Assembly: GCF_000331285.1 (NCBI RefSeq) | Contig: NZ_ANFX01000013.1 | Span: forward strand, 62,001 to 126,000 | Origin: Porphyrobacter sp. AAP82 | Lineage (GTDB): Bacteria > Pseudomonadota > Alphaproteobacteria > Sphingomonadales > Sphingomonadaceae | Direction of reading: 5' to 3' | Length of the DNA: 64,000 nucleotides | In this document: one piece after another, positions 43,939 through 47,198 of the stretch | Layout of the letters: every line of letters starts with the position of its first letter | Numbering within the stretch: position 1 is the first letter of the stretch | Notes under the pieces: model-generated | The model's database searches: none | Told to the model about the DNA's origin: nothing | The model's input: only the letters and a program-made list of their open reading frames with translations | Translations under genes and position numbers: made by a program

Positions 43939-43942
<4 letters not shown>
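43493..43942 (+). CDS. Rrf2-family Fe-S regulator of the suf operon (IscR/SufR-like)
   Basis: 149 residues. Winged helix-turn-helix at residues 1-85 ([49 protein letters not shown]). The Cys set C-x5-C-x5-C ([13 protein letters not shown]) has the same spacing as the [2Fe-2S] ligands of IscR, so a cluster-sensing role is expected. ATG 43493 chosen as conserved start. Overlaps sufB by four bases. An inverted repeat lies just upstream. Confidence 0.9.
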
Positions 43943-45420
<1,478 letters not shown>

Positions 45421-45442
45421 TCCGCGCCGCCCTCACCTTTTC

Positions 45443-45525
45443 CGTCACCCCGGCGCAGGCCGGGGCCCAGAGCGGCAAAGTGCAGCGCCCAGCGCCACTG
45501 GGTCCCGGCCTTCGCCGGGATGACG
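45443..45525. repeat. Palindromic intergenic element inserted in the suf operon
   Basis: Left arm 45443-45470 and right arm 45498-45525 are 28 bases each and reverse-complementary at 25 of 28 positions; the loop is 27 bases. The arm type (CGTCACCCCGGCG...GGCCCAG) looks like the GC-rich palindromic elements scattered in many alphaproteobacterial genomes. It could form a long RNA hairpin between sufB and the next gene. Only one copy is in the window. Confidence 0.85.
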
Positions 45526-45537
45526 AAGTTGGTTTGG

Positions 45538-45557
45538 TTGAGGGGAGCGTGGGGTGA
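45538..45557 (+). repeat. 20-bp direct repeat, right copy
   Basis: Perfect second copy of 45401-45420. The GTGA within it contains the start codon of the next gene, so the duplication restores both the sufB end and the start of the following ORF. Confidence 0.9.
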
Positions 45558-45901
45558 ATAACATTCCAACTTGGCTCGCCCTTCTTGGGTTTGCAGCCCC
45601 TCTGATTGCATTAGCCGGTAGTGCTGTGGCCCTTGTAATCCGACAATATTATGAGGCCAAACAGCGGCAGCGCGACGAGTTTTTTGCGCTACTAGACCGC
45701 TTCGACAATCCAAACACTGGCATTTTTTGTCGCTTAGCAGCGACTTATCGCCTCCGAGAATTCAAAGAGGATCGTGACTTCCTCCTCCGGTTTCTGGAAT
45801 TGCAGCAGAAAAATGTCGAAGGCGGGAAGGATGCTGTCGCGCTTCTTGTCGGAGAGATGAAACTCACCTGCCGTGCGCTTAGAGGCGAGGAATTCGAATG
45901 A
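45554..45901 (+). CDS. Small membrane-anchored ORF inside the suf operon, hypothetical
   Basis: 115 residues. One N-terminal membrane segment (WLALLGFAAPLIALAGSAVALVI) and a cytosolic charged helical part with KQRQRDEFFALLDRFD and FLLRFLELQQKN. Its base composition is AT-richer than the suf genes. GTG 45554 lies in the right 20-bp repeat and the gene overlaps the DUF559 gene by four bases. Not part of standard suf operons; function unknown. Confidence 0.6.
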   Translation: MNNIPTWLALLGFAAPLIALAGSAVALVIRQYYEAKQRQRDEFFALLDRFDNPNTGIFCRLAATYRLREFKEDRDFLLRFLELQQKNVEGGKDAVALLVGEMKLTCRALRGEEFE

Positions 45902-46455
45902 CCACCCGCAAAACCCTCGCCCTCAACCCAGAGGCTGCCGCCTCCGCCGAAGCCCCCGCGCTCAAGAAGAAGGGCCGCGGGTGGGAGATTTCGGACAAGC
46001 GGCTCGATGCGCTGCACGAGCAGGCGCGCGAATTGCGCCGCCATTCGTCCGAGGCGCACAAGGCGCTCGCCGCCAAGTTCGTCGCCGCCGACATGGGCCG
46101 CTACACCTTCAAGCGCCACGCGGTGGTCGGCTCGGCGATCGTCGATTTCAACTGCCACAACCTCGGCCTCGCGCTGGCGATTGACGAGGAGGGGCAGAAC
46201 GTGCGCCTAGCCACACGCCGCGACAAGAGCCTCGAGAGCGTCGGCATTCAGGTGATGCGGATCGCCGCCGCCGACATCCTCACCGACATCGACGCGGTGC
46301 TGAAGCAGCTCACCCAGGTGATGCGCGACCGCATTGCCGAGAAGAAAGAGGCCGCCCGCGCACACAAGGCGGCCAACCCCAAGCAGACCTATTCGCGGCC
46401 CAAGTCCGGCGACAAGCCGCAGGGTGATGCGAAGCGCCCTCCAAGGAAGTATTGA
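45898..46455 (+). CDS. DUF559-type protein in the suf operon
   Basis: 185 residues. The middle (YTFKRHAVVGSAIVDFNCHNLGLALAIDEEGQN ... SVGIQVMRIAAADIL) follows the DUF559 endonuclease-like pattern, related to very-short-patch-repair nucleases. The VDF Asp is present, but the usual E-x-D-G is A-I-D-E, so the first acid looks lost and cleavage may not occur. A Lys-rich tail follows. It overlaps both neighbours (ATGA with the ORF before, TGATG with sufC), so it belongs to the operon. Confidence 0.8.
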   Translation: MTTRKTLALNPEAAASAEAPALKKKGRGWEISDKRLDALHEQARELRRHSSEAHKALAAKFVAADMGRYTFKRHAVVGSAIVDFNCHNLGLALAIDEEGQNVRLATRRDKSLESVGIQVMRIAAADILTDIDAVLKQLTQVMRDRIAEKKEAARAHKAANPKQTYSRPKSGDKPQGDAKRPPRKY

Positions 46456-47198
46456 TGCTCGAAATCACCAACCTCCACGCCTCCGTCGGCGACAAGCCGA
46501 TCCTCAAGGGCCTCACGCTCGAAGTCCCCGCGGGCGAGGTGCATGCGATCATGGGCCCCAACGGCGCGGGCAAATCGACGCTCACCAATGTGCTCGGCGG
46601 CAAGCCCGGTTACGAGGTGACGGCGGGCAGCGTGACCTTCCGCGGCGAGGATCTGCTGGCGCTGGAACCGCACGAGCGCGCCGCGAAAGGCCTGTTCCTC
46701 GGCTTCCAGTATCCGGTCGAGATCCCCGGCGTCTCCAACGTCCAGTTCCTGCGCGAGGCATTGAATTCCCAGCGCAAGGCGCGCGGGGAAGAACCGCTCT
46801 CGGGCGGCGAGTTCCTCAAGCTCGCCAAGGAGAAGGCCGGGCTGCTCAGGATGGACATGGAAATGCTGAAACGGCAGGTCAATGTCGGCTTCTCGGGCGG
46901 CGAGAAGAAGCGCGCCGAGATGGTGCAGATGGGGATTCTCGGGCCCCACCTCGCGGTGCTGGACGAGACCGATAGCGGCCTCGATATCGACGCGCTCAGG
47001 ATCGTCGGCGCGGGGATCAACGCGATCATGCGCAGCCCCGGCAAGGCGGTGCTGCTGATCACCCACTACCAGCGCCTGCTCGACGTCGTGAAGCCCGACA
47101 AGGTCAGCATCCTCGCCGGCGGCCGCATCGTCGAGACCGGCGGGCCGGAGCTTGCCCTGAGGCTCGAGGCCGAGGGCTATGACGCGGTGATGGCGTGA
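46455..47198 (+). CDS. sufC: Fe-S assembly ATPase SufC
   Basis: ABC-type ATPase of SufBCD. 247 residues. Walker A GPNGAGKST, FQYPVEIPGVSN (typical SufC Q-loop region), signature FSGGEKKRAEM, Walker B LAVLDETDSGLDID and the His LLITHYQRLL. Start overlaps the DUF559 stop and its stop overlaps sufD. Confidence 0.97.
   Translation: MLEITNLHASVGDKPILKGLTLEVPAGEVHAIMGPNGAGKSTLTNVLGGKPGYEVTAGSVTFRGEDLLALEPHERAAKGLFLGFQYPVEIPGVSNVQFLREALNSQRKARGEEPLSGGEFLKLAKEKAGLLRMDMEMLKRQVNVGFSGGEKKRAEMVQMGILGPHLAVLDETDSGLDIDALRIVGAGINAIMRSPGKAVLLITHYQRLLDVVKPDKVSILAGGRIVETGGPELALRLEAEGYDAVMA

Follow-up and report, generated by a model that had tools for sequence, protein, structure and literature searches.

The window, the whole stretch of 64,000 nt analysed here, comes from a genome of 2.9 Mb and holds a suf operon in which sufB is separated from the DUF559 gene, its usual 3' partner across the genus. 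The 20-nt sequence TTGAGGGGAGCGTGGGGTGA at the end of sufB is found again behind a palindrome with arms of 28 nt (25 of 28 positions matching), and the two copies are identical at 20/20 nt. The left copy ends in the sufB stop codon TGA and the right copy supplies the GTGA with which a 115-codon ORF starts (Table 1). The repeat, the palindrome and the codons at both copies had been stated in the original prediction and were borne out. Two features go beyond it. The identity of the copy with the sufB end ceases past 20 nt (10/10, 10/10 and then 4/10 positions), and the 141-nt insert is fully open, forming one reading frame (mini-ORF) which is coupled at both ends by GTGA stop/start overlaps (45417-45420 and 45554-45557). 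The frame of the mini-ORF is the sole open one of the three forward frames across the unit. The repeat and the arms are not chance products, since 0.00 arm matches were expected from shuffles (2 were observed in the window) and the longest flanking repeat across 20 shuffles of the right flank was 8 nt. An assembly artefact is disfavoured by the similar layout found in separately sequenced, named assemblies.

Table 1 Features of the sufB-sufC region in the window
Feature	Position	Strand	Evidence or remark
sufB	43939..45420	+	Pfam PF01458 E 4.9e-79, PF19295 E 5.6e-11
First repeat copy (last 20 nt of sufB)	45401-45420	+	Shine-Dalgarno-like GGGGAG and GTGA overlap
Coupled mini-ORF, 46 codons plus stop	45417..45557	+	From the sufB GTGA to the GTGA of the next ORF
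C-rich spacer, sufB stop to palindrome	45421..45442	+	Sequence
Left CGTC-REP arm of the head-to-head dimer	45443..45470	+	CGTC family description (PMC3733652)
Right CGTC-REP arm	45498..45525	-	Arm matches
Second copy of the sufB 3' end	45538..45557	+	Shine-Dalgarno-like GGGGAG, mini-ORF stop TGA, GTG start of the next ORF
Cargo ORF, 115 codons, no assigned function	45554..45901	+	No Pfam or NCBIfam match
DUF559 gene	45898..46455	+	Pfam PF04480 E 1.3e-14
sufC-like gene (presumed from its translation)	46452..47198	+	DUF559-sufC junction holds REP mini-ORFs in relatives too

The product of the 115-codon cargo ORF matched nothing in Pfam up to E 0.1 or in NCBIfam up to 0.01, and it had no kin other than itself among the 118 cargo ORFs described below. 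A pattern scan across 84,980 species, each represented by a single genome, confirmed no relative; it is sensitive to close relatives only and may omit the source genome.

The palindrome is, as judged from its sequence, a head-to-head pair of CGTC-type REP repeats. Each arm is a small palindrome in itself with a CGTC tag and a CCA-type tail, and the arms face each other. The CGTC motif stands at the outer end of each unit (CGTCACCCC... and, as its reverse complement, CGTCATCCC...), and a short stem with a loop of 4-5 nt precedes the tail, as seen by inspection of the right arm (CCCGGC-GAAG-GCCGGG, tail CCCAG). The repeats recur throughout the genome, mostly as head-to-head dimers: the whole-genome search for the arm, which the original prediction had suggested, gave 11 occurrences with 4 dimers among them, and a pattern for family A, which detects dimers only, occurs 5 times in the source genome and 87 times in 15 Erythrobacter genomes. 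The CGTC-tagged REPs described by Di Nocera et al. 2013 (PMC3733652) are likewise short palindromes with a CCA-type tail; this super-family, usually found as head-to-head dimers, is mostly alphaproteobacterial, often lies near the 3' end of the upstream gene and is said there to have no dedicated transposase. Unlike the REPs as described in that source, the dimer behind sufB lies within a mini-ORF that is coupled and terminates in a copy of a gene end. The same study did not count REPs as intragenic where the ORF was a hypothetical protein shorter than 120 aa, regarding such cases as plausibly spurious. A direct repeat flanking every copy, the mark of a MITE making target-site duplications, was missing (nothing above 8 bp) at 48 of 49 other dimers. 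Rickettsia palindromic elements (cited via PMC3733652) are also palindromic repeats read in frame, but they sit inside an existing protein gene, whereas sufB ends before the element, which forms a separate small ORF of its own between two coupled genes.

The junction was compared in relatives, the closest named ones judged by the DUF559 protein being Erythrobacter. A DNA search matched 112 of 114 genomes of the genus. Junctions were read at 103 of 104 loci (L017-L120) and at 77 of 80 named loci holding sufB, and the resulting 180 records (L125 added, L139 removed) collapsed to 140 unique junctions. Left out of the sufB set were L019, L130, L138 and L183, where no sufB was found, and L139, where the sufB end is not intact. 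A start codon overlaps the sufB stop in 138 of the 140 junctions. In 24 of them sufB directly overlaps the DUF559 gene, which supports the suggestion that the uninterrupted ancestral junction was an overlap; these are the palindrome-free junctions that the original prediction had proposed to look for in relatives. Most of the remaining junctions hold some other small ORF. The cargo ORFs of at least 50 aa (118) fall into 80 clusters, 62 of which are single, and the largest cluster includes a few DUF559 genes or fragments thereof. Gene content turns over inside the operon at a hot spot, the sufB-DUF559 junction (45421-45897 in the window, L017-L207 in relatives). Even a close pair can differ, L024 having the direct junction and L026 a 115-aa cargo gene, and in three cargo families some junctions have the palindrome and others lack it (L034 versus L048 and L201; L094 versus L100; L053 versus L185 and L186). 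A tree of the 103 loci requires at least 18 changes of REP state and at least 13 changes between direct and filled junctions; the REP state is therefore not one inherited accident. A strict pattern joining a REP end and a sufB copy matched 2 of 397 genomes of the family and misses most known cases including that of the window, so that it gives no frequency.

Remnants of rearrangement were also seen in this region. In L108, 232-355 nt past the sufB stop, a chimeric 40-aa ORF between two cargo genes consists of a DUF559 start fused to a sufB end; such a join between the 5' part of one gene and the 3' part of the other looks like a footprint of local duplication. Truncated DUF559 starts lie between cargo genes in L049 and L067.

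A REP motif was found within 70 nt of sufB in 26 of the 140 junctions and was missing there in 114. In all 26, a frame runs from the GTGA or ATGA overlapping the sufB stop through the dimer to a stop codon overlapping another start codon, whereas neither of the remaining frames is open at any of these junctions (0 of 52). The out-of-frame TGA in the sufB end partly closes the alternative frames, and the fairer comparison is therefore the background at 48 dimers outside suf, where 49 of 288 frames (17%) are open across the dimer and its edges. Where an ORF lies upstream of such an outside dimer (51 contexts), a mini-ORF passes through the dimer in 7. The REPs at the sufB junctions belong to four families, labelled A to D in this analysis, and the distance from the sufB stop to GTCA is 20, 23 or 35 nt in A, 18 or 24 nt in B, 17-18 nt in C and 18 nt in D. 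This distance compensates for the register of each REP family.

The DUF559-sufC junction gave a similar picture. All nine REP-like junctions counted there are open, start-coupled mini-ORFs ending within 15 nt of the sufC start; the stop lies on an overlapping start in five and 10-11 nt into the next gene in four. Two of the nine (L162 and L165) rest on a weak motif, and L104 was removed from an initial ten by judgement, its motif match being weak and without a palindrome. L045 and L159 also hold REP-like sequence at this junction, which the motif missed. The REP-derived mini-ORFs of L020, L036, L056, L058 and L093 end here without a copied gene terminus. Outside the suf operon, REP dimers form mini-ORFs with overlapping codons at both ends in L236 and L237.

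A recognisable copy of the sufB terminus ends the mini-ORF in 21 of the 26 REP junctions near sufB. The copy comprises about 30 nt in 13 junctions, about 20 nt in five (the window, L034, L035, L040 and L053) and 50-60 nt in three (L094, L182 and L188), and a fixed 20-bp unit was therefore rejected. The exact match between the copy and the junction's own sufB end is 20 nt in the window and 3-6 nt in the other 20 junctions, owing to divergence between the copies. The Shine-Dalgarno signal and the start of the next gene lie in the copied end, while the signal at the sufB end itself is usually the weaker one. The Shine-Dalgarno energy of the sufB end was -7.44 in the 24 direct junctions and -8.00 in the 90 cargo junctions without a REP within 70 nt; with a REP, it was -6.55 at the sufB end (n=26) and -8.13 at the downstream copy (n=21) (p 3e-9; paired p 5e-4). 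The Ser codon of the LEGSVG motif is TCN in 19 of the 26 REP junctions and in 7 of the 114 others. The weaker sufB signal, the strong copy and the Ser codon shift suggest that the initiation signal has been transferred to the copy, and a role of the copy as the initiation signal of the next gene would explain its retention. Unlike the other 20 junctions with a copy, the window has kept a strong signal at its own sufB end, identical to that of the copy; gene conversion or a young copy may account for this.

We consider it quite probable that a CGTC REP is tolerated at this coupled junction as a translated mini-ORF which ends in a copied initiation module. Ribosomes finishing sufB would reinitiate on its GTGA, read across the palindrome in its only open frame and terminate on the copied sufB 3' terminus, whose Shine-Dalgarno signal and GTGA would start the next gene, so that the operon would stay coupled. 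The 20-bp repeat would accordingly be an initiation module kept by selection and not a footprint of REP insertion. The proposal builds on what can be read from the DNA, namely the identity of the REPs, the reading frame, the recurrence of the layout, the stronger Shine-Dalgarno signal in the copy and the lack of long direct repeats at the other dimers examined; translation of the mini-ORF and selection for coupling are what we infer from it. Termination-reinitiation coupling at ATGA and TGATG overlaps (PMC6728339) similarly involves overlapping stop and start codons at each junction, but here the coupling would pass through a repeat-derived mini-ORF. The copy is not essential, as 5 of the 26 mini-ORFs (L027, L030, L036, L038 and L046) end without it. 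Nor do we claim a coupling enforced by RNA structure, because the pairing of the copied Shine-Dalgarno sequence with the spacer was no stronger than with shuffled spacers (mean 0.47 versus 0.50, p 0.72). Further points weigh against the proposal. Overlapping starts close only five of the nine mini-ORFs at the DUF559-sufC junction, and the window deviates from the other junctions with a copy in the strong signal at its own sufB end. The junctions are related and recombine, and the 26 cases are thus not 26 independent events. Moreover, the four REP families are spaced alike with respect to both sufB and the copy, a pattern accounted for neither by simple insertion nor by simple inheritance.

The copy most likely arose by local duplication or unequal recombination at the junction. 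The original prediction had instead taken the repeat for a target-site duplication made by the palindrome on entry, that is, for the footprint of a mobile element which duplicates 20-30 bp or more of its target. The exact 20-nt repeat flanking the unit, the sharp limits of the copy, about 30 nt long, in 13 of the 21 junctions that have one and the existence of element-free sites would suit such an element. Nevertheless, the flanking direct repeat is at most 8 bp at 48 of 49 other CGTC-REP dimers and 12 bp at the remaining one, inspection by eye of six REP loci of the DUF559-sufC junction revealed no copy of the DUF559 end, and the copied stretch varies from 20 to 60 nt among relatives. We regard a target-site duplication as distinctly unlikely. 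The 49 dimers comprise the loci of 18 of the 87 A dimers, 30 of 31 B dimers and the loci of the source genome, with duplicates collapsed and the window excluded; the 12-bp case is the DUF559-sufC dimer L227 of genome G017, in which both copies were judged by eye to lie within coding sequence. It is possible, although short of an even chance, that one ancient unit made up of the sufB end, a REP and a copy of the sufB end descends from the family ancestor and was spread and mixed by homologous recombination, REP families being swapped inside it. Units of the four REP families, and those of other genera (L125, L182 and L188), have similar boundaries, L058 and L056 contain stacked units that differ in REP family, and the junction is very dynamic, all of which points that way; the differing copy lengths and the five junctions without a copy point the other way, and we know of no mechanism for swapping a palindrome in place. 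Such an origin is compatible with a coupling role.

A neutral accident, in which a REP landed behind sufB, part of the gene end was duplicated by chance and the frame was open owing to the coding capacity of REPs, seems very unlikely to us. REPs are indeed known inside ORFs (PMC3733652), 49 of 288 frames are open at other dimers and the out-of-frame TGA contributes to closing the alternatives at sufB. An accident does not, however, account for 26/26 and 9/9 open mini-ORFs against a background of 17%, for the match between the sufB distance and the register of the family, for the repeated changes of REP state on the tree or for the difference in Shine-Dalgarno strength. The hairpin might also serve as an mRNA processing or attenuation signal reducing expression 3' of sufB. 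The RNA of the unit folds very stably (-87.9 kcal/mol, z -6.2), and an action of REPs on mRNA is assumed by others (PMC3733652); on the other hand, the hairpin would be melted if the mini-ORF is translated, and 114 of the 140 junctions have no REP within 70 nt of sufB. We consider this role unlikely.

The source genome also offers a candidate for the enzyme behind these repeats. At locus L264 (C47:16747-16968), an open frame of 98 aa encoding a GIY-YIG domain (PF01541) lies between arms that are 1-2 bases off those of the window. PF01541 matched 51 times in a first set of 9 Erythrobacter genomes and 34 times in a second set of 9, and 60 of these 85 loci were analysed (L256-L285 and L335-L364). 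Eight were set aside as they showed no similarity to the short nucleases: seven proteins of 670-755 aa, which we take to be UvrC, and one of 202 aa; no flanking inverted repeat was found at the six of these that were measured (scores 8-9.5). All 52 short GIY-YIG loci, from 18 Erythrobacter genomes, have an inverted repeat with a score of at least 14 in their flanks. The arms are CGTC-like in 42 (A 20, G 9, C 5, B 4 and D 4) and start with GTTCG in 10 (E 5 and F 5); the seven labels were set by patterns written after the arms had been seen, and the line between D and G is loose. With the narrower family patterns alone, arms were found on both sides in 18 and on one side in 6 of the first 30 loci. 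A score of 13 was reached at 29 of these 30 gene loci (21 with a GTC tag) and in 4 of 120 control windows within them. In a class-wide sample, the corresponding numbers were 11 of 24 usable loci (4 with the tag) and 0 of 96 controls.

The phylogeny of the nuclease tracks the repeat family. The labels change 7 times on the nuclease tree (the minimum is 6) against a mean of 29.7 with shuffled labels, and none of 200 shufflings gave a value as low, although near-copies favour such clustering. The number of A dimers per genome is 5, 14, 4, 1, 1, 2, 2, 18, 12, 2 and 25 in the 11 genomes with an A-type nuclease and 0, 0, 0 and 1 in the four without (one-sided p 0.003, the comparison having been made post hoc). 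We propose from this association that REPs may be mobilised by a cognate GIY-YIG nuclease. In the broader reading, to which we give somewhat better than even confidence, CGTC REPs would be part of selfish elements driven by small GIY-YIG nucleases, with each nuclease gene bracketed by a pair of inverted repeats of its own family; the head-to-head dimers, including the one behind sufB, would be non-autonomous derivatives, which hosts can domesticate in operons as translated coupling mini-ORFs. The REPIN/RAYT system (PMC3116915, PMC2817692) offers a parallel, with two inverted REPs forming a hairpin unit and with such repeats on either side of a nuclease or transposase gene, but its enzyme is RAYT, not a GIY-YIG nuclease like the candidate in the present case. 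A part in phage infection, discussed for GIY-YIG genes in Caulobacter (PMC10688885), would be a rival role. In genome G022, three nuclease copies (L271, L276 and L282) share a block of 434-439 bp with 94-97% identity in surroundings that are otherwise unmatched; the block reaches past the REP arms into shared flanks.

The repeat itself is thus of a known kind, and what is new among the literature searched is its setting, a coupled mini-ORF ending in a copied gene terminus. Searches of titles and abstract openings, limited in depth and in journal coverage, found no report on REP mini-ORFs at coupled junctions and none on GIY-YIG genes linked to REPs. If the proposal is true, a repeat can occupy a junction that has no intergenic space and leave the genes coupled by being a small ORF with a copied initiation signal, and short repeat-derived ORFs that annotation omits may be translated. 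The boldest lead is the association with the nuclease, which makes the question of what moves CGTC REPs directly testable.

Another junction of variable content was observed in what is presumably the mdh-sucD region (L316-L329; contig C47 in the source genome). The junction measures 54 bp in L323 and L324, holds REP dimers in L319 and L322 and carries other inserts elsewhere.
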